From NCBI GenBank assembly GCA_019310485.1, contig JAFDEF010000020.1, forward strand, positions 18,791-82,790: 64,000 nucleotides of DNA, given 5' to 3'. Below, in pieces: positions 19,013 to 63,262 of this stretch. The notes beneath the pieces were generated by a model. That model was not told the origin of the DNA. It saw only the letters and a program-made list of their open reading frames with translations, and ran no database searches. The DNA comes from Deltaproteobacteria bacterium. Lineage in GTDB: Bacteria; Desulfobacterota; DSM-4660; Desulfatiglandales; HGW-15. The first letter of the stretch is position 1, and the number at the start of each line of letters is the position of its first letter. The position numbers and the translations under genes were made by a program.

Positions 19013-19037
19013 GGCTCCTCATGAGAATCTGTGCTGA
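19013..19037 (+). repeat. Left terminal inverted repeat of the ISL3 element
   Basis: GGCTCCTCATGAGAATCTGTGCTGA; it also contains the last codons and stop of the transposase, QHRFS-stop, read on the minus strand. Confidence 0.88.
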
Positions 19038-20245
19038 CAAATTGGTAGTTGAAGCTTACCGAGGCTATGAATCAAGGCCAGTGAGAATGTTTTCTCAGAC
19101 CTATATCCACGTGCGCGGTGGCTGATCACTTTGGCGTTATTATTCATCGCTTCGACTATGCCGTTGTCAATTCTCAAATCAAAATATGCAAGGATACCTT
19201 CTTCATGATTTCTCAGCATCCATGCAAAGTCTCGCAAGGGTTTCAATCTACTATGGGTAGCCCACCAAAACCACTGCTTCAGATACCTTGCTGCCCACCC
19301 TTTGCGTTTATAGCTCCACAGCTTTCTGAAGAGTTCTTTAAGGAGATAAGCTTTAACCACTTTCAGGTTCATCTTGAGGAGTTCACTTGAACGGATTTTC
19401 TGTTTGTCACTTAGATTCCAGGGGTTTTTGATCCACATATACTTGGTCCCCTTAAGGAGTTGAGGATCAGTTTCCTGGAGGGCCTTAGCTTCCATTTTCC
19501 GGACCTTGTCCACAGCTTCTATGAGATGTCGGACGATGTGGAACTTATCAAGTACGGTGACGGCTTCAGAGCAGTACTCATGAATCACATCAATATAGTT
19601 TTGCCACATGTCACAACAGATTCCCTCGATGCCCGCTGTGCGCTCTTTTCCCCACCACTGGAAAAACCGGCGCAAGGAATCTTTATCTCTATGGGCGCCG
19701 CTCCAGAGGAGCCGCTTTCGTTCAAGATCGTAAACATTGGTATGGTACGTATGGCCTCTTTTTCTGCTGATCTCGTCAATGCCAATGAATCGGACCCCTT
19801 TATAGTTTTCCCTCTCCCTTCCATACTCCACCGCCGCTTCCACTGCTGCACTGACAGTATTCCAGGAGACATTGAACAGCCCAGCCACCTGTTCCCATGG
19901 CAGCAATCTACTCCAGAAGGCAAGCACAGTGATAAGGGGAAAACTGATGGGTCTTTTTCCCAAGCTCCAGGGAATTGCCTCCACCTTAATCCCATGTTCT
20001 GGGCAGTTGACCCTCCTGGGTTGATAGTAAAGGAAGACGGGAATGCCCCACAAAGACACATGAGCCCATTTCCTCATTTTGAGCTTATCCTTAACATAAG
20101 AGCGTCTGCCACACAGACCACAAGGCAGTTTTCGTCTCTTCCTGGCATCCAGGCTGATCCTCAGTTCGTTGCCTTCAAATTTGACGGAAACTACACGATG
20201 ATCCTTGATTCCAAGAGTAAAACGTACGATACTTTCTATGAGCAT
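19019..20245 (-). CDS. ISL3-family transposase
   Basis: 408-aa DDE transposase of the ISL3 (IS204/IS1001/IS1096/IS1165) group. It has an N-terminal zinc-ribbon/HTH region (LPCGLCGRRSYVKDK, CPEHG) and the catalytic core with candidate acidic residues in VRFIGIDEISRKRGHTYHT, GIEGICCDMWQNYIDVI and DNGIVEAMNNNAKVISHRAR. An ATG at 20245 with GGAGG seven bases upstream is a good start. No internal stop or frameshift, so the element may be active. It fills most of the 1343-bp IS. Confidence 0.92.
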   Translation of the reverse strand: MLIESIVRFTLGIKDHRVVSVKFEGNELRISLDARKRRKLPCGLCGRRSYVKDKLKMRKWAHVSLWGIPVFLYYQPRRVNCPEHGIKVEAIPWSLGKRPISFPLITVLAFWSRLLPWEQVAGLFNVSWNTVSAAVEAAVEYGRERENYKGVRFIGIDEISRKRGHTYHTNVYDLERKRLLWSGAHRDKDSLRRFFQWWGKERTAGIEGICCDMWQNYIDVIHEYCSEAVTVLDKFHIVRHLIEAVDKVRKMEAKALQETDPQLLKGTKYMWIKNPWNLSDKQKIRSSELLKMNLKVVKAYLLKELFRKLWSYKRKGWAARYLKQWFWWATHSRLKPLRDFAWMLRNHEEGILAYFDLRIDNGIVEAMNNNAKVISHRARGYRSEKTFSLALIHSLGKLQLPICQHRFS

Positions 20246-20945: not shown

Positions 20946-23417
20946 ATGGGAAAAAGGAAGAAAAGGAAAAGACAAAAAGGTCCAAATAAAACTGCGCCGA
21001 TAGAGGTCTTGGAAAAAAAGGCAAGTGATGCCTTGCAGGCTAGAAAATACCGGCAGGCTAGAGACTACCTTAAAGAGCTTTGCAAGCGTGACAGGGAAAA
21101 GTATCTGCCTGAGCTCATTGCGGCCCACGAAGGCCTTGCCCTCCAGATGATAAATGAGGGTCGATTCAGCGATGCAAAACAAGTGGTGGATCATTTAACC
21201 GATCTCGGGGCCACTGGGAAAAAAGGCTGGCTTGAGTTTATTGTCTCTTTTAAGCAAGGTGATTTCGTGAAGGCCGCTTGCGCAGCACTGCGATTGCTTG
21301 AGGAAGATGATAATATAACTGAATCAGGCGAAAAACTATTAATGTATGATTCATTGGTCCTTCCCTTTGAAGCTCTTGATATTGCCAAAACACCTAAACA
21401 ATTTTCAATCATCAGGGAGGCCAACCAGGTTCAAGCAGCCCTGAAGCTTGTGAGTGAAGAGAAATATGAAGAGGCAATGGCCTGCTTGAGGGCTGTTTCG
21501 TTGAGTTCTCCATTTTCACACTGGAAATTGTTCGTGAAGGGATTGATCGCCTTTTACAAAATGGAAGAACAAAAGGCCCAAAAGGCCTTCAGCAAGTTGC
21601 CTGACGAGTCGATTCCTGCCAAGGCGGCCGAGCCTTATATGCTGCTACTTGGTAGTCGGGAGGGCTTGAAGAAGTATCAGAAAAGGGCAGATGTGCTCGG
21701 GCTAGCATGCTGGGTGGCTGCAAGGAAAGATCTGGAGTCAGTGTTGCCCAGGGCGGAGTATCTTTGGGGGGTAGGCCGGTTTCGGGACTCTTATGCCCAT
21801 GTCAGGCGAAACATTGAGGGATTTCCCTCTGAGGACCAGGGGATAATTCAGGGCCTTTCGGATTTCTATCTTAATGCGGTTTTCCAGATGAAGGAAAGGG
21901 ACGCGGACAGGTATATTGACTTTTTGGACAAGATGGTGGCCAGAGGCAAGACAGATGGAGCTGAGAAGCTGATGATTCTGCGGACCATAGGCCTTTGGCT
22001 TGAGGATGTGGGGGCCGATGATCCCATGGTGTTGGGGGTTTGGAAGGAGTTTCTACGCTGGCATCGTGAGGTCCACGGGGAGAACAGGGATCTCCAAGCG
22101 CTTGTCTGTGTCCACCTTGGTGACCTTTTCTCAAGAGAGGTAATCAGGCATCCCCCATTTTTCCCCTTTTCTGGAGGAGCAACGTCAAGGCGGCCCGTGG
22201 TGCATAATGAGCGGCTGGCCCAGTACTGCTATGATACATGCCTCGAAATTGATCCTACCAACAAACAAGCCCATTTTTCCCTTCTGGCTCTCTATGAAAA
22301 GACGGGGCAGAAATCCAAAATAAACAAGAAGCTTGATGAAATCATTGAGCTTTTTCCAGAGGATAAGGATACGCTTTACAAGGCGGGCCTTAGGTGTGTG
22401 GACCGCAAGGCTTTTATAAAGGGCATGAAGTACCTGGAATGGGCCGCTAAACTTGACCTTCTGGATATGAGGGTGAGGGAGGCGTTAATTGTTTGCTGTA
22501 TCAAAGCTGCCCTGGAGTATGCAAAGAGGTCCAAGGTTGAGCAGTACAGGCCCCTTCTTTCCAAGGCACTGGAGTATGGAGAATCAGATTCAGATGATTT
22601 CAATCTTGGACATGCTTATCTGTACGCCCGATGGGCAACCTTTGAGCTTCTCAACAACAATGTGACTGATGCCGAGCAGTTGTTGGACAAGGCCTCAGAG
22701 CTTGGTCGTCATGAGCCAAGATTTTTATATTTTAAATTCCTTGTTGGAAGGCTCTATCAAGTTCCGTCCAAGTACATGAGTAGTATTGAGAAGAGGGTAA
22801 AGAAGGAGTTTTCAGGCCGGGCCTCTCCTGAAAAGGCGATAGCCTTTGCTGATGTAATATCTTATTTCCAACGTGCCTCCCGCACAATTCCCAAGTGGTT
22901 TAAGGAAGAACAGAGGAGGGTTAATAGGTATATTCGAAAGACGGCCAAAGGGGAATTTTCACAGGCGCAGGCAAGGGTGTTTGTCGAATATGCGCTTCAG
23001 AACACGGACGAAGATCTGGCCTGGAGCTATATAAATAAGGCCCTTGAGCAAAACCCGGATGATCCCTACTTTCTTTTCGTGCGCTTTCAGTTAGAGGTTG
23101 GTTCCTTCTATGGCTTTGTGGACGAAGAGGAATTGGACGAACTTAAAAGGATCCTGAGTCTTGCACAAAAGCAAAGGGATCAGGAACTGATCCCCAGGAT
23201 AAGAAAGACTATTGAAGAGATAGAGAAAATGGGCTCTGTTCGTGACATCTTTGACAACCATGATGAAGAGTTGGACGAGGAGGAAGAAGATCTTGATGAA
23301 GCGGTGGATATATTTGTGGAGAATCTGTTGAGGGAGGCCAATAAAAAAAGGCCCGGGAGACAAAGGAAAAAAAGAAATAGTCCTTCAGGTGCCACACAAT
23401 TAAATCTTTTTGATTAA
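20946..23417 (+). CDS. Large tetratricopeptide-repeat protein of the Hsp70 cassette
   Basis: 823-aa soluble protein, nearly all helical, with TPR-like pairs throughout (ARKYRQARDYLKELCKRD, AHFSLLALYEKTGQKSKINK, DTLYKAGLRCVDRKAFIKGM, AWSYINKALEQNPDDPYFLF). It has a very basic start (MGKRKKRKRQKGPNK), an acidic run near 775 (EELDEEEEDLDEAVD) and a second basic patch before its end, SGATQLNLFD. QLNLF fits the QLxLF beta-clamp-binding consensus, which may be chance. No enzymatic motif is seen. There is no clear ribosome site before the ATG. It leads a five-gene plus-strand set and is the likely client- or partner-binding subunit. Confidence 0.85.
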   Translation: MGKRKKRKRQKGPNKTAPIEVLEKKASDALQARKYRQARDYLKELCKRDREKYLPELIAAHEGLALQMINEGRFSDAKQVVDHLTDLGATGKKGWLEFIVSFKQGDFVKAACAALRLLEEDDNITESGEKLLMYDSLVLPFEALDIAKTPKQFSIIREANQVQAALKLVSEEKYEEAMACLRAVSLSSPFSHWKLFVKGLIAFYKMEEQKAQKAFSKLPDESIPAKAAEPYMLLLGSREGLKKYQKRADVLGLACWVAARKDLESVLPRAEYLWGVGRFRDSYAHVRRNIEGFPSEDQGIIQGLSDFYLNAVFQMKERDADRYIDFLDKMVARGKTDGAEKLMILRTIGLWLEDVGADDPMVLGVWKEFLRWHREVHGENRDLQALVCVHLGDLFSREVIRHPPFFPFSGGATSRRPVVHNERLAQYCYDTCLEIDPTNKQAHFSLLALYEKTGQKSKINKKLDEIIELFPEDKDTLYKAGLRCVDRKAFIKGMKYLEWAAKLDLLDMRVREALIVCCIKAALEYAKRSKVEQYRPLLSKALEYGESDSDDFNLGHAYLYARWATFELLNNNVTDAEQLLDKASELGRHEPRFLYFKFLVGRLYQVPSKYMSSIEKRVKKEFSGRASPEKAIAFADVISYFQRASRTIPKWFKEEQRRVNRYIRKTAKGEFSQAQARVFVEYALQNTDEDLAWSYINKALEQNPDDPYFLFVRFQLEVGSFYGFVDEEELDELKRILSLAQKQRDQELIPRIRKTIEEIEKMGSVRDIFDNHDEELDEEEEDLDEAVDIFVENLLREANKKRPGRQRKKRNSPSGATQLNLFD

Positions 23418-23432
23418 ACCGGAGGAAGGGTA

Positions 23433-23738
23433 ATGAATCCTTTTGAAGTCCTTGGGGTAGGGGTGGATGCTGATGATGTTTCTGTGAGGAAAGCCTATCT
23501 TGACCTGGTAAGACGTTATCCCCCGGAGAAGCATCCCGAAAAATTCAAACAAATTACTGATGCCTATGATCGCTTGAAGGATAAAAAAAGCCGCCTGGAA
23601 TATTACCTCTTTAACCGGGAGACTCCTTTTAGGTCTCCCTTTGAGGTCTTGATTTCACATTTTTCAGAGGCAGATGGGAGAAGGCCTCCTAATTTTGAAG
23701 AAATTAAGGAGTACTTGAGAAGATGTGCGATTCAATAA
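23433..23738 (+). CDS. Degenerate J-domain protein (PPE instead of HPD)
   Basis: 101-aa protein consisting of little more than a J domain: MNPFEVLGVGVDADDVSVRK, then AYLDLVRRYPPEKHPEKFKQ and ITDAYDRLKDKKSRLEYYLF. Helices I-III align with DnaJ (DPYEVLGV..VRKAYLDLVRRY..EKFKQITDAYDRL), but the HPD tripeptide that triggers Hsp70 ATP hydrolysis is PPE, and the loop to helix III is short. No zinc-finger or substrate domains. GGAGGAAGG precedes the ATG, 15 bases after the TPR gene, and the grpE-like gene overlaps its 3' end by 16 bases. It presumably partners the DnaK two genes downstream. Confidence 0.85.
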   Translation: MNPFEVLGVGVDADDVSVRKAYLDLVRRYPPEKHPEKFKQITDAYDRLKDKKSRLEYYLFNRETPFRSPFEVLISHFSEADGRRPPNFEEIKEYLRRCAIQ

Positions 23739-24448
23739 CTACGCCTGAGATACACCCTGATGAGGGTGTATTAAAAAAGGCGGACAGCGGCGCCCAGGAA
23801 TGGCAAAAGACCATCAGAGAGAATCTTGATCTTTGGCTCAATGAGGTTACCAACCTTGAGGATATTGAGCCTGCAGATGACGAACCACCGGATCTTGAAT
23901 CATTCTTTTCGCAATTGTGTATCCTGAGCGCCGAGTTTCGCAAAGCGAGCAGGCGGAGTCATGATACATTTGTCCAGATGGGTGAGACCCTGGCTGAATT
24001 TGATGGAGCGTTAAAGAGGATCTCAGCCAAGCTTTCGGAATTTGAGAAAGAAAAACAGGCCGAGGATATCCTTTCAAAAAAACGGATCTACCTCCCGTTG
24101 GTGGAGATGTTCCAAAGATTCAAGCGCATACAAGAGAGGCTGAACCGGCCGCCTAGATCTCGGTTTCTTTTCTTAGCCACTTCCTGGCAAAAGGCATGGA
24201 AGGAATTACGGGAAGGCTTTAACATATTATGTGCCCATTTTGAGGCCCTGCTTGGCAGTGAGGGCATAACGCCCGTGGAGGCCCTAGGCAAGGCCTTTGA
24301 TTCCACCCTCATGACGGCCGTTGAAGCAGAAGAAACTGATTCCGCCCCCCCGGGTACAGTAATAGAAGAATTCTCAACCGGATTTTTGTATAAGGGCTAC
24401 CCCCTGAAACTGGCAAAAGTCAAGGTAGCAAAAGGGAAAGGAGTATAA
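23723..24448 (+). CDS. GrpE-like nucleotide exchange factor
   Basis: 241-aa protein. The C-terminal quarter is recognisably GrpE: FEALLGSEGITPVEALGKAF, then DSTLMTAVEAEETDSAPPGT and VIEEFSTGFLYKGYPLKLAK, matching the beta-domain that opens the DnaK nucleotide cleft. The N-terminal half is a long charged helix region (LAEFDGALKRISAKLSEFEK) instead of the usual paired GrpE helices with NLRKR-type sequence, and a middle segment RFKRIQERLNRPPRSRFLFL is unlike GrpE. It starts within the J gene and ends two bases before dnaK, so translation is coupled. Function as exchange factor for the neighbouring DnaK is inferred. Confidence 0.82.
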   Translation: MCDSITTPEIHPDEGVLKKADSGAQEWQKTIRENLDLWLNEVTNLEDIEPADDEPPDLESFFSQLCILSAEFRKASRRSHDTFVQMGETLAEFDGALKRISAKLSEFEKEKQAEDILSKKRIYLPLVEMFQRFKRIQERLNRPPRSRFLFLATSWQKAWKELREGFNILCAHFEALLGSEGITPVEALGKAFDSTLMTAVEAEETDSAPPGTVIEEFSTGFLYKGYPLKLAKVKVAKGKGV

Positions 24449-24450
24449 GA

Positions 24451-26184
24451 GTGGAGGTAATTGTAGGAATAGATTTGGGTACCACAAACTCTGAAATCGC
24501 GGTGATCAAGGACGGGAGGCCCGAGGTGATCCCCGTAGATGGAGAGTTGATCATGCCCTCATGCGTGGGAATAGACAGAAACGGGTCATTGATTGTGGGA
24601 AGGCCTGCAAAGAACCAGATGGTTTCAAATCCGGAATCCACCATTTTGTCCATCAAAAGGAAAATGGGCCAGGACACGAAGGTCAGGCTTGGCGACAAAG
24701 ACCTAACCCCGGAAGAGGTCTCAGCCCTTATCCTAAAGAAGTTGAAGGCAGAGGCAGATGCCTATCTGGGAGAAGAGGTAAAAAAGGCGGTCATAACAGT
24801 CCCCGCATATTTTGATGATAGCCAGAGAAAGGCCACCAAAAATGCGGGTGCCCTGGCCGGCCTGGAGGTGATGAGGATCATAAATGAACCTACCGCAGCA
24901 GCCCTGGCCTATGACAGCAAGCTGGAGGAAAACCAAACTATTCTGGTCTATGACCTTGGGGGAGGCACCTTTGATGTTTCATTGGTGACAGTGGAAAATG
25001 GGGTGGTTGAGGTGAAGGCCAGTCACGGCGATACTCACCTTGGGGGAGATGACTTTGACAACCTTTTGATGGAACATGTGGCCAGGATATTTCGTAGGCA
25101 GCATGGGGTTGATTTGTTGGCTGACCTTCGTTCTCGAAACAGGTTGTGGTCTGCTGTGGAAAAGGCCAAAAGGGAACTATCCGATATGCCCTATGTTTCA
25201 ATTAAGGAAGAATTTATCCATGGCGATCATCACCTTGATGTGGAGGCCTCTAAATCCGAGTACGAGGCTATGATAACTCCTCTGTTAAAAAAGACCATTC
25301 ATTCAGTTCACCAGTGCCTGAAGGATGCCAATTTACTTCCCCGCGACATTGATAAGATCATTCTTGTGGGAGGGGCCACCCGCACACCCCTGGTCGCCAA
25401 AATACTACAAAACGAGGTGGGAGTAGAGCCCAGGCATGAAATCAGTCCAGATCTGATTGTGGCCATGGGTGCCGCCATACAGGGCGGCGTGATCGGGGGT
25501 GTAGAAACCGACTCCGTTTTAGTGGATATTACCCCATACACCTTTGGAACCAGCGCGGTGGACTTTCGTAAGGGGGATTTTTGTGAGGATGTGTTTGTTC
25601 CTATTATCAAGCGAAATACCCCTCTTCCGGTCACCAAGGCCGAGGTATTTGCAACCCTTTTTGACGGGCAGGAATCAGTGGATGTGAGGATCTATCAGGG
25701 TGAAAAACCAATTGCCTCAGAGAATATATTTATAGGCAATTTTATCATAAATGGCCTGAGCGATGTTCCTGCCGGAAACCAGATAGTGCTGAAGCTGCAC
25801 CTGGATCTGGACGGCGTCCTGGAAGTGACGGCAGAGGAAAAGAGGACAGGTTTGTCAAAAACGGTCAGGATGGACACCGGAAAACCGGGAAGTGTTTTTG
25901 ACCTCCAGAAGGCAAGAAAAAATATCGCCGCCTTGCTCAATGAAGAGGAACTCGCGCAACAGGGCAAATCCGTTGAAGGTGAAAGTAGAGAGGGGCTTGT
26001 GGGAGAGGCCAAGGAGCTTCGCAAACGGGCTGAAAAGATAATGGATATCATTGATGAGACAGATGCCTATGAGCTTCAGGCGCTTATTAAGCAAACCAAG
26101 GATGCCATTGCCGGGGGGGACATAGAAAGAGTGGCCGAACTGAACGAATCACTCTCTGATATGCTTTTTTATCTGGAGGATTGA
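24451..26184 (+). CDS. DnaK-like Hsp70 chaperone, short form
   Basis: 577-aa Hsp70. All three actin-fold signatures are intact: VGIDLGTTNSEIAVI near the start, VYDLGGGTFDVSLV at about 170, and IILVGGATRTPLV at about 308; INEPTAAALAYD is also present. The substrate-binding beta domain follows (LVDITPYTFGT, FIINGLSDVPAGNQIVLKLH). The lid is cut to about 110 residues and ends LSDMLFYLED, without the disordered tail of housekeeping DnaK (about 630-640 aa). Start is GTG with AAAGGAG before it. It is a dedicated paralogue rather than the main DnaK, judging by length and partners. Confidence 0.93.
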   Translation: MEVIVGIDLGTTNSEIAVIKDGRPEVIPVDGELIMPSCVGIDRNGSLIVGRPAKNQMVSNPESTILSIKRKMGQDTKVRLGDKDLTPEEVSALILKKLKAEADAYLGEEVKKAVITVPAYFDDSQRKATKNAGALAGLEVMRIINEPTAAALAYDSKLEENQTILVYDLGGGTFDVSLVTVENGVVEVKASHGDTHLGGDDFDNLLMEHVARIFRRQHGVDLLADLRSRNRLWSAVEKAKRELSDMPYVSIKEEFIHGDHHLDVEASKSEYEAMITPLLKKTIHSVHQCLKDANLLPRDIDKIILVGGATRTPLVAKILQNEVGVEPRHEISPDLIVAMGAAIQGGVIGGVETDSVLVDITPYTFGTSAVDFRKGDFCEDVFVPIIKRNTPLPVTKAEVFATLFDGQESVDVRIYQGEKPIASENIFIGNFIINGLSDVPAGNQIVLKLHLDLDGVLEVTAEEKRTGLSKTVRMDTGKPGSVFDLQKARKNIAALLNEEELAQQGKSVEGESREGLVGEAKELRKRAEKIMDIIDETDAYELQALIKQTKDAIAGGDIERVAELNESLSDMLFYLED

Positions 26185-26492
26185 TGAAAATAACATGTCC
26201 TGCTTGCAAAAAGGCCAGTCAGACCGGCGATAAGTGCCTGCGGTGCGGATGCGATCTATCCATACTTCGGCAGATTCGTGAGGCTGCAACATATGAACTG
26301 GGAAGAGCCGCAAGGCAGTTGAGGAATAATAATGGACAAGTGGCCCTGGCACATGCAAAAAGGTCATGGAGCCTTAAAAACAGCGCATCTGCAGCGAGAA
26401 CTGCCTTCATGGCCTGCCTATTGATGAAGAAATTTGATGAGGCGACACAGTGGTATTCCCACTTGCTGAAATTGAAGCATCCTGTTCCTTAA
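26184..26492 (+). CDS. Small zinc-ribbon / TPR-like protein ending the Hsp70 cassette
   Basis: 102 aa. An N-terminal treble-clef or zinc-ribbon is evident in MKITCPACKKASQTGDKCLR then CGCDLS (CxxC..CxxC), followed by helices that look like one or two TPR units (HAKRSWSLKNSASAARTAFM, FDEATQWYSHLLKL). Its ATG overlaps the dnaK stop (TGATG) behind CTGGAGG, so it is co-translated. The zinc ribbon recalls that of type I DnaJ proteins, which the cassette's J protein lacks, so it may supply that part in trans; this is inference. Confidence 0.75.
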   Translation: MKITCPACKKASQTGDKCLRCGCDLSILRQIREAATYELGRAARQLRNNNGQVALAHAKRSWSLKNSASAARTAFMACLLMKKFDEATQWYSHLLKLKHPVP

Positions 26493-26806: not shown

Positions 26807-26998
26807 ATGTCCACCTCATTGCTCTATCATGCTTATGGTTTAGAAGAAGTCAAGTATAATTCCACCAGGTACAAGAAAGGCACTGTTATGTGCCATGGCG
26901 AAGTCACCTCCTCTGTGGAATGTTGTCCGGTCTGTGGGAGCTGGAAGAATTTCAATTACCGGTCGGCTCAATTCGGTAAAAACAATCAGGATAGCTAG
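26807..26998 (+). pseudogene. ISL3-family transposase, N-terminal fragment
   Basis: MSTSLLYHAYGLEEVKYNST then RYKKGTVMCHGEV and ECCPVCGSWKNFNYR correspond to the start of a large ISL3-subgroup transposase, whose N-termini read MSTSLLYHGFGL with a CxxCGS zinc knuckle (family knowledge). The frame then drifts to a stop and no catalytic core follows. The start has AAGGAGG upstream. It is a different ISL3 subtype from the intact element at 19-20 kb. Confidence 0.7.
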
Positions 26999-27043
26999 GT
27001 AAATAACACTAGAGTGGCTCATTTTTAAATGACCCTTTTGGGC

Positions 27044-27202
27044 TCATTTTATCACGACCATTTACAAGAGGAAGTAATCCGGGCCAGACTTGCCAAATGG
27101 CACAGGCCTGAGACCAAGTTCAAGAAAGGTTATCTTGCTCTCTATTCCAGGCTTGCTGAATCCGCGGACAAGGGCGCAATTATTAAGCACAGAATTGAGT
27201 AA
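27044..27202 (+). pseudogene. ilvD: Dihydroxy-acid dehydratase C-terminal remnant (probable)
   Basis: The frame EEVIRARLAKWHRPETKFKK then GYLALYSRLAESADKGAIIK ending at TAA 27200 resembles the C-terminus of IlvD/Edd proteins, which end with a pattern like RR..WKPP..KV.RGYLA.YA.LV.SA..GAV. Nothing upstream belongs to the gene; the preceding sequence is IS debris. Call made from memory of the family pattern. Confidence 0.55.
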
Positions 27203-27239
27203 TGTTAAGGTGGAACATCATCATTGTGCTCAGAAAAGG

Positions 27240-61003: not shown

Positions 61004-63262
61004 ATGAAAAAACTGGCACGAATTCTGACTTCCTTGAACCCCACATCCATAACTATCTACATGACCGCCCTTGTCATGGTTCTTTTTCTCGTAGGAGTTC
61101 CCTTCCTCGATCTTGTGGAATTGAAAACCTATGACCTTCGATTCAGGTCCAGGGGGACCACGCCCCCCTCACCTGCGGTAGTCCTGGCCGTTATTGATGA
61201 AAAGAGCATAAAAGCGGAAGGCCGCTGGCCGTGGCCGAGGGCGAAAATTGCGCGGCTGATTGATATTCTTTCGCGCGATGGGGCAAAGGTAATCGCTTTT
61301 GATATTATTTTTGCCGAGCCTGACAAAAACCCAAACCTCGAGCTCATTAATCGCCTTGACCGGGAAATTGGGGCCTCTCATCTTGACGATGAAGGCCTCA
61401 AAACCTTTCTGCGGAAGATCCAACTGGAGGGTGACAATGACAAAAAGCTTGCCGAATCCATAATGCGCTCTCGCGCAAAAGTGGTGCTAGGGTATTTCTT
61501 TCACATGAGCGAGGCCGATCTCGGCTTCAGCATCACTGAAAAAGAGATGAATGAAAGATTAAGGAAAATTGCTTCAAGCAAATATCCTATCACGATTTTT
61601 GAACAGGAACGAATGCAAATTGACCCTTTCATTCACGCCTATGCCCCTCAGCCCAATATTGAAATTCTAAGCCAGACAGCCCACTCTACGGGCTTTTTTA
61701 ACATGCTTCCTGATCAGGACGGCGTGGTCAGATGGATTCCCCTGGCTATAAAGTGCGGGCATGATATCTTTGCCCCGCTTTCGATCGAGTCAACATGGAA
61801 CTATCTCGGCCGTCCTCAACTGATTTTGAAAGTGGCTGCCTATGGCGTTGAAGGCATCATGATGGGCAAGGAGTTTATCCCGACTGATGAAAACGGCCAG
61901 ATGCTCATAAATTATCTTGGGCCCGAAAAAACTTTCCCTCATTACCCCTTAACGGACATCTTGCACGAGAAAGTCCCAAAAGGCACTTTTAACAACAAAA
62001 TCGTTCTGGTCGGCAGCACGGCAGTGGGCATATACGATATGAGGAACACACCATTTTCATCCGTGCACCCCGGCCTTGAAGTCCACGCCACGGCTATTGA
62101 CAATATCCTGCAAAAAACTTTCCTGAAAAAACCCAAGTGGACCAGCATTTATGGTGCACTGTGCATTCTTGCGTTCGCTATTTTGGTGGGTGCAATGGTT
62201 CCCCGACTCAGTGCTGTTAAGGGAGTTTTTCTTGTTTCAGCCCTTTTCGGTCTCCAAATCTACCTGGCTCAGTGGCTTTTCACGCATGCAGCCCTCTGGA
62301 TAAATATTGTATATCCTTTGTTGGCTCTGCTGCTCCTTTACATATCCCTGACAATATACCGCTACTTTACCGAGGAACGGGAACGCAAGAAAATCAAACG
62401 GGCATTCAGCCACTACGTATCCAAATCGGTCGTGAATGAAATGCTCAAGGATCCCTCGAGGCTTAAGCTGGGAGGTGACAAGAAAGACCTTTCCGTGCTT
62501 TTTTCCGATATCAGGGGCTTTACCACGATCTCTGAATCCCTCTCCCCTGAGGAACTGGTAGGCCTGCTGAATGAGTATCTGACCGTAATGACGGATATTG
62601 TTTTTAAGTACGAAGGAACCCTTGATAAGTACATGGGCGATGCTATCATGGCCATTTACGGAGCCCCCCTTGAGCTTCCTGATCACCCTCAAAGGGCATG
62701 TAATTCAGCGCTTGAGATGATCGAGAGTTTAGGCAAGCTTAACGAGAAATGGATAAAAGAACAAAAGACACCCCTGGATATCGGGATTGGTATTAACACA
62801 GGGGTCATGATGGTTGGCAACATGGGATCACAGCAGCGTTTTGACTATACCGTCATGGGGGATGCGGTCAATCTTGGCTCCAGGCTCGAAGGGGCCAACA
62901 AGAGTTACCAGACAAACATTATCATCAGCGAATCTACTTACCAGCGGGTAAAGGACGACTTTTTCTGCATGGAGCTTGACAGCGTGAGGGTAAAAGGCAA
63001 AAAAGTTCCGGTTAAGATCTACCAGCTGCTTGGAAAGGATAATATCCCCGGAAGCAGGAAAGAAGCAGTGAATTTTTTTCATAAGGGTCTCGAATTCTAC
63101 AAAAAACAGGAATGGGATAGTGCCGTGGAAAGCTTTCAGGAGGTCCTTGCAAAGGATCCAGAGCTTTTAGCCGCGAAGCTTTATATCCAGCGCTGTTTTG
63201 ATCTCAAAATAGATCCCCCGCCTCCTGACTGGGATGGAGTTTTCAGCATGAAAACGAAGTGA
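61004..63262 (+). CDS. CHASE2-domain adenylate/guanylate cyclase with TPR
   Basis: 752-aa membrane receptor. One N-terminal membrane helix (SITIYMTALVMVLFLVGVPF), an extracytoplasmic CHASE2 domain (about 35-370; VVLAVIDEKSIKAEGRWPWP, NKIVLVGSTAVGIYDMRNTP), three membrane helices (about 385-460), a class III cyclase domain with VLFSDIRGFTTISESLS, GTLDKYMGDAIMAIYGAPLE and YTVMGDAVNLGSRLEG, and a C-terminal TPR (FFHKGLEFYKKQEWDSAVES). Metal-binding Asp residues are intact; the Lys in DKYMGD favours ATP. The signal sensed is unknown. GGGGGG precedes the ATG at -8. Confidence 0.93.
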   Translation: MKKLARILTSLNPTSITIYMTALVMVLFLVGVPFLDLVELKTYDLRFRSRGTTPPSPAVVLAVIDEKSIKAEGRWPWPRAKIARLIDILSRDGAKVIAFDIIFAEPDKNPNLELINRLDREIGASHLDDEGLKTFLRKIQLEGDNDKKLAESIMRSRAKVVLGYFFHMSEADLGFSITEKEMNERLRKIASSKYPITIFEQERMQIDPFIHAYAPQPNIEILSQTAHSTGFFNMLPDQDGVVRWIPLAIKCGHDIFAPLSIESTWNYLGRPQLILKVAAYGVEGIMMGKEFIPTDENGQMLINYLGPEKTFPHYPLTDILHEKVPKGTFNNKIVLVGSTAVGIYDMRNTPFSSVHPGLEVHATAIDNILQKTFLKKPKWTSIYGALCILAFAILVGAMVPRLSAVKGVFLVSALFGLQIYLAQWLFTHAALWINIVYPLLALLLLYISLTIYRYFTEERERKKIKRAFSHYVSKSVVNEMLKDPSRLKLGGDKKDLSVLFSDIRGFTTISESLSPEELVGLLNEYLTVMTDIVFKYEGTLDKYMGDAIMAIYGAPLELPDHPQRACNSALEMIESLGKLNEKWIKEQKTPLDIGIGINTGVMMVGNMGSQQRFDYTVMGDAVNLGSRLEGANKSYQTNIIISESTYQRVKDDFFCMELDSVRVKGKKVPVKIYQLLGKDNIPGSRKEAVNFFHKGLEFYKKQEWDSAVESFQEVLAKDPELLAAKLYIQRCFDLKIDPPPPDWDGVFSMKTK

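Follow-up and report, generated by a model that had tools for sequence, protein, structure and literature searches.

Five open reading frames, read from the sequence, lie on the forward strand between positions 20,946 and 26,492 of the window, the 64,000-nucleotide stretch of DNA that was analyzed. In order, they encode a TPR protein, a J-domain protein, a GrpE-like protein, an Hsp70, and a zinc-ribbon protein (Table 1). The TPR and J genes are separated by 15 bases, the J and GrpE-like genes overlap by 16, and 2 bases precede the Hsp70 gene, whose stop codon is overlapped by the ATG of the last gene (TGATG). Since every junction is an overlap or a short gap, the five genes appear to form a compact operon with translational linkage. 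The original prediction described five linked genes in one direction at this position, and the reading frames and junctions are present as it described them.

Table 1. Coordinates of the cassette genes and their sequence features in the window
Feature	Position	Strand	Details
TPR/alpha-solenoid protein, proposed scaffold	20946..23417	+	823 aa; disordered N- and C-terminal tails; Pfam TPR families
QLNLF codons, then D-stop; putative beta-clamp-binding motif	23397..23411	+	read from sequence
J-domain-only protein	23433..23738	+	101 aa; Pfam DnaJ E=6e-12
Pro-Pro-Glu codons at the HPD position, histidine absent	23520..23528	+	homologue alignment
GrpE-like nucleotide exchange factor	23723..24448	+	241 aa; Pfam GrpE E=1e-18, residues 153-237
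HscC-type Hsp70 (by tree and indels)	24451..26184	+	577 aa, GTG start; Pfam HSP70 E=3e-151
LFYLED codons, near-invariant Hsp70 C-terminus	26164..26181	+	ending common to cassette Hsp70s
Zinc-ribbon protein with TPR-like helical tail	26184..26492	+	102 aa from ATG 26184; TTG 26181 is an alternative start

The NCBIfam assignments agree with those of Pfam for the TPR, DnaJ, GrpE (C-terminal half), and HSP70 domains. The zinc-ribbon protein gives weak Pfam matches only, including a weak TPR_2 match; its relatives share four invariant cysteines (CPAC...CxRC) and a helical tail with conserved W, L, and F residues. A promoter scan found sites no more frequently than in shuffled sequences.

An ISL3-family transposase (19019-20245, reverse strand; NCBIfam NF033550, above the cut-off) lies about 700 bp upstream of the cassette. 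Directly downstream is a short ORF that encodes a CxxC pair (MSTSLLYHAYGLEEVKY...; 26807-27230, forward strand). The 63-aa product has no Pfam match, and our impression is that it resembles a decayed ISL3 transposase N-terminus. Farther along the window, at 61004-63262 on the forward strand, a CHASE2 sensor is fused to an adenylate/guanylate cyclase catalytic domain.

Distribution and genomic context

A scan of genome contigs with single proteins found nothing, and the profile scan found 18 loci. In these profile searches, the five-gene order on one strand was present in the window and in 18 other genomes; therefore, the cassette is not a chance arrangement. Its carriers belong to at least three phyla and comprise Deltaproteobacteria/Syntrophales, anammox Planctomycetota (Scalindua, Jettenia, and relatives), and Verrucomicrobia. 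The cassette is rare throughout. It was found in 6 of 395 genomes of the phylum sample (one of the six having only a broken TPR fragment), 5 of 155 Syntrophales, 5 of 294 Planctomycetota, and 2 of 289 Verrucomicrobia, and some contigs are cut. This patchy distribution suggests horizontal transfer or repeated loss. No relatives of the TPR protein were detected in the viral contigs and plasmids searched, and an origin from viruses or plasmids is therefore not favored.

One planctomycete locus (L072, G559:C124, 6269-12635) is rearranged and very divergent, with the order Hsp70-zinc ribbon-TPR-J-GrpE. A broken cassette TPR gene is located at a contig end in another genome (L034, 67-721; G097:C62), where it is split into overlapping fragments in different frames; the first of these is 56% identical to the window protein.

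An all-against-all comparison of the cassette flanks revealed no conserved sixth gene. ABC proteins are common to some flanks, and we read them as ordinary ABC ATPases. As no flanking gene beyond the five is shared, the module is self-contained.

The cassette was originally predicted to be a dedicated chaperone machine, distinct from the housekeeping DnaK system. The window genome (3.64 Mb, 94% complete) encodes two further full-length DnaKs, on contigs C60 and C87, and a canonical DnaK is present besides the cassette Hsp70 in all 15 other cassette genomes searched. With these additional DnaKs, and with TPR and zinc-ribbon genes that accompany the chaperone genes in the same order in the 18 other genomes, the prediction is borne out, and it is close to certain that the cassette is a dedicated Hsp70 machine.

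The Hsp70 and its co-chaperones

In a maximum-likelihood tree of 37 Hsp70s, the cassette proteins form one clade (support 100/96) and group with HscC of E. coli, Rahnella, and Erwinia (100/99), apart from HscA and from DnaK, including the DnaKs of the same genomes; the tree is rooted at its midpoint, and the claim is limited to this bipartition. The hallmarks described for HscC are a gap at residues ~76-101, a shortened GrpE-signature loop, an insertion of 4-8 residues in SBD-beta, and an altered lid (PMC8215388). A 24-residue gap at about DnaK residues 79-102 occurs in all cassette rows of the alignment shown, and likewise in E. coli and Rahnella HscC. The cassette Hsp70s also carry an insertion of ~8 residues in SBD-beta loop L1,2, after the linker region, and, compared with E. 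coli DnaK, have a shortened GrpE-signature loop and an altered lid. Their length (577 residues here, 576-590 in relatives) falls in the HscC range of 550-580 or, in some, slightly above it. Judged by the tree and the hallmark indels, the cassette Hsp70 is of the HscC type and not of the DnaK type, an assignment that the original prediction missed.

Throughout the main cassette set, every row of the alignment retains the J-docking residues R167, N170, T173, E217, V218, Q378, L391, P419, and D393. The C-terminus follows the pattern [LIV]FYL[ED][DE] in nearly all cassette Hsp70s examined, with the rearranged G559 locus as the exception. By analogy with the EEVD terminus, this acidic ending might serve as a docking peptide for TPR repeats. 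The alternative that the protein is a truncated ordinary DnaK was ruled out by the tree and the indels.

The cassette J proteins lack the histidine of the HPD motif in 16 of 16 sequences (an alignment of 15 sequences plus that of locus L033), a second feature overlooked in the original prediction. The motif position is occupied by P, S, or T; the next residue is P in all but one sequence, which has A, and the third is D or E. Under the scheme of a 2026 review, such proteins would be classified as type IV, or pseudo-JDPs (PMC13254874). Replacement of the HPD histidine by glutamine abolishes function in every system tested, and HPE alone seems to be tolerated, in the HscC partners DjlB and DjlC (PMC8215388, PMC13254874). 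On plasmid pKM12v1 of Rahnella aquatilis (L086, 7697-9641), the hscC gene is followed by two J-domain proteins that read RPD. Based on these Rahnella proteins, the PAH of a Nostoc J protein (see below), and the cassette J proteins, HscC-type systems as a whole seem less strict about the HPD motif, a generalization from few cases.

The Pfam match of the GrpE-like protein covers its C-terminal half only, the N-terminal half being family-specific. Its AlphaFold2 model (pLDDT 76) consists of helices at residues 79-140 and 152-179 followed by six strands, that is, the long helices and beta wing of a GrpE fold. All 12 PDB matches obtained with Foldseek at E<=0.001 are GrpE or GrpEL1 chains (including 9a81, 9bls, 4ani, and 1dkg). 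The GrpE-signature loop of the cassette Hsp70 is shortened, yet the operon encodes a GrpE-like protein with a predicted GrpE fold.

The cassette resembles E. coli HscC (Hsc62) in its Hsp70, which belongs to the same clade and shares the gap relative to DnaK, the short GrpE-signature loop, and the L1,2 insertion. Both also have J partners that deviate from HPD and neighbors encoding repeat proteins, which in E. coli are the Sel1-repeat genes ybeQ and ybeT. However, GrpE is not an expected partner of E. coli HscC (PMC8215388), whereas the cassette Hsp70 has its own GrpE-like partner. The operon further differs in including a short histidine-less J protein, a long TPR solenoid, and a zinc-ribbon/TPR protein.

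A plasmid of Nostoc sp. UHCC 0302 (NZ_CP151103.1; L074, 2209-8211) carries the same five-part order, TPR-DnaJ-GrpE-Hsp70-TPR(zinc), for which we found no name in the literature. Its Hsp70, J, and GrpE proteins are 45%, 32%, and 30% identical to those of the window, and its last protein likewise combines CxxC pairs with TPR repeats. In contrast, the Nostoc TPR scaffold is not recognizably homologous and ends in GGFQELF, and the J protein reads FPAH at the HPD position. Since the architecture is shared despite the divergent TPR protein, the plan is broader than the family described here.

Two other systems share parts of this arrangement. Myxococcus xanthus MxDnaK2 is a second Hsp70 whose operon also encodes a dedicated GrpE homologue, the nucleotide exchange factor MXAN_6672 (PMC11019930). 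Compared by description, that operon is bicistronic, unlike the cassette, and TPR or zinc-ribbon partners go unmentioned in the part of the source considered (PMC11019930). The AtcJABC operon of Shewanella likewise encodes a short J protein of its own together with its partners, AtcA-C, which have no known domains. However, AtcJ has a functional J domain and uses the housekeeping DnaK, and the operon contains neither Hsp70 nor GrpE (PMC6715715). In the open-licence literature, we found no paper that names the five-part system, in line with the original prediction, or that describes such a peptide as connecting an Hsp70 machine with the sliding clamp.

The C-terminal tail of the TPR protein

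AlphaFold2 models the TPR protein (pLDDT 85, pTM 0.57) as one long alpha-solenoid spanning residues 19-772, with pLDDT mostly between 80 and 95. A Foldseek search with this model was uninformative, returning generic TPR solenoids only (Ctr9, Ski3, Naa15, APC/C; TM ~0.2). Residues 793-823 form a disordered, charged tail, in which the sequence QLNLF occupies residues 818-822, in a segment with pLDDT below 50, and is followed by a terminal D.

The TPR homologues are 25-53% identical, and their tails are otherwise hardly alignable. Nevertheless, many of these tails end in related peptides: QLNLFE, QLDLFDELET, QQNLFD, QRNLFDDQ, QTSFFDDLD, QALLFDD..., QASLFDD..., QMDLF, QLDLFNL, and QLDLF. The loose pattern Q-x-x-[LF]-F is found at the tail of 13 of 22 homologues and the strict pattern in 10, against 0.17 and 0.04 expected in 22 from shuffling of the tails; the expression was fixed after some tails had been seen, and the 22 sequences are not independent. 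Among 217 background ORFs of the same loci, there were no loose matches and one strict match, which comes from a split TPR gene and is one of its overlapping fragments. Mapped onto the Hsp70 tree, the motif occurs in three separate clades; the anammox cassettes, L033/L043, L049, and G559 lack it. Inspection of the other cassette proteins in the motif-less lineages gave no convincing case of relocation.

The consensus Q-phi-x-[LM]-[FL], often C-terminal in a disordered tail, is an established beta-clamp ligand; its strongest form is QLDLF, and QLNLF is the version found in Pol V (PMC11139829). The window tail thus carries the same peptide as Pol V and, in its placement, resembles the clamp clients Pol V/UmuC, Pol IV, transposases, and RecBCD. 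The words "chaperone" and "DnaK" have 0 occurrences in that review (PMC11139829). The window genome has one dnaN gene. Its product keeps the pocket residues L155, T172, G174, H175, R176, L177, P242, V247, N320, and Y323 and the C-terminal MPMRL, and R152 and S346 are changed. The original prediction, which saw the TPR protein as a client adaptor, missed this tail motif, which by its sequence is clamp-binding-like. The role of localization scaffold fits the protein at least as well.

As a control, 297 genomes of the phylum were scanned for a terminal QL[ND]LF[DE]-stop, using a DNA pattern in which F may also stand in place of L. Besides the TPR gene of the window, the scan recovered three ORFs with a length of 70 aa or more, namely, an IS4-family transposase, a PHP protein, and a 73-aa protein. 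The PHP protein (L097, 1504-2832, reverse strand), which ends in RQLDLFD, matches TIGR00375 below the curated cut-off, a family that we take to be EndoQ. It may be a variant of a repair enzyme that binds the clamp; archaeal EndoQ is reported to work with PCNA (PMC4858679). The 73-aa cysteine-rich protein (L096, 1504-1722, reverse strand) ends in NQLDLFE and is a candidate clamp ligand. Transposases bind the beta clamp through a terminal peptide of this kind (PMC4549789). Because the scan ties the terminal peptide to DNA enzymes, it argues for the clamp reading.

Several observations count against clamp docking. In the flank comparison, the cassette had no conserved neighbor with a function in replication or repair. 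The motif is not universal, being missing in several lineages that retain all five genes; the variants QQNLF, QRNLF, and QTSFF fall outside the canonical consensus; and the Nostoc cassette, with its identical five-part order, has a TPR terminus that is not canonical. These points on the motif favor the strongest alternative, in which the same dedicated HscC-type machine uses the TPR peptide to dock elsewhere (on a cassette subunit, a client, or RNA polymerase), and the likeness to clamp ligands is coincidental. Conversely, the exact QLNLF and QLDLF sequences are those of the best-known clamp ligands (PMC11139829), and the control scan recovered DNA enzymes that end in such a peptide. Docking within the cassette is further disfavored, since the motif is lost without loss of any cassette gene, which argues that the cassette can assemble without it. 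We regard docking elsewhere as possible, at rather less than even odds. For docking of the TPR tail on the beta sliding clamp in most lineages, judged from these sequences, we consider the odds to be about even.

Proposed mechanism and significance

Because the TPR tail ends in a clamp-binding-type peptide, we propose that the cassette encodes a replication-clamp-tethered machine in which the HscC-type Hsp70 has a dedicated exchange factor and a J protein lacking the HPD histidine, and we assign this reading a probability of roughly 45%. The Hsp70 would be the motor, and the GrpE-like protein would reset its nucleotide state. Despite lacking the HPD histidine, the J protein may occupy the usual J site, acting probably as a weak or conditional activator or as a positioning subunit. 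The TPR solenoid, as the scaffold, and the zinc-ribbon/TPR protein would serve as assembly and targeting subunits, and the five proteins would form a physical complex. In most lineages, the disordered QLxLF-bearing tail would recruit this machine to sliding clamps at replication forks or at sites of repair, and the Hsp70 could then remodel or clear protein complexes there. Hsp70 action on replication complexes has precedent in lambda O-P-DnaB and RepE, and loss of hscC in E. coli causes sensitivity to UV and cadmium, for which a mechanism is lacking (PMC8215388).

The cadmium phenotype would also suit a general stress or proteostasis role, a stress role having been raised in the original prediction, in which a second Hsp70 set serves the envelope, metal, or cold response with the TPR protein as client adaptor. 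Hsp70 paralogues often specialize by client, and Shewanella AtcJABC pairs its dedicated J protein with partners for growth in the cold (PMC6715715). However, the flank comparison found no conserved stress-gene neighbor, and such a role leaves the terminal peptide unexplained; we consider it improbable. A mobile or anti-phage module in a defense island, the defense role raised in the original prediction, is very unlikely despite the rarity and patchiness of the cassette and the nearby ISL3 transposase, since PADLOC returned only marginal Hsp70-like and spurious matches, the TPR relatives are absent from the viral contigs and plasmids searched, and the flanks share no mobile or defense gene.

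The cassette belongs among the HscC-type Hsp70 systems. HscC is the least understood bacterial Hsp70, and the cassette looks like a complete HscC-type system. In addition, its J proteins lack the HPD histidine recurrently and in a conserved manner; the purpose of such proteins was called enigmatic in the 2026 review (PMC13254874). The TPR tail offers a concrete, mutable link between an HscC-type system and DNA replication, and clamp docking, if true, would add a new mode of Hsp70 targeting. The function of HscC and the purpose of histidine-less J proteins both become directly testable with one operon.
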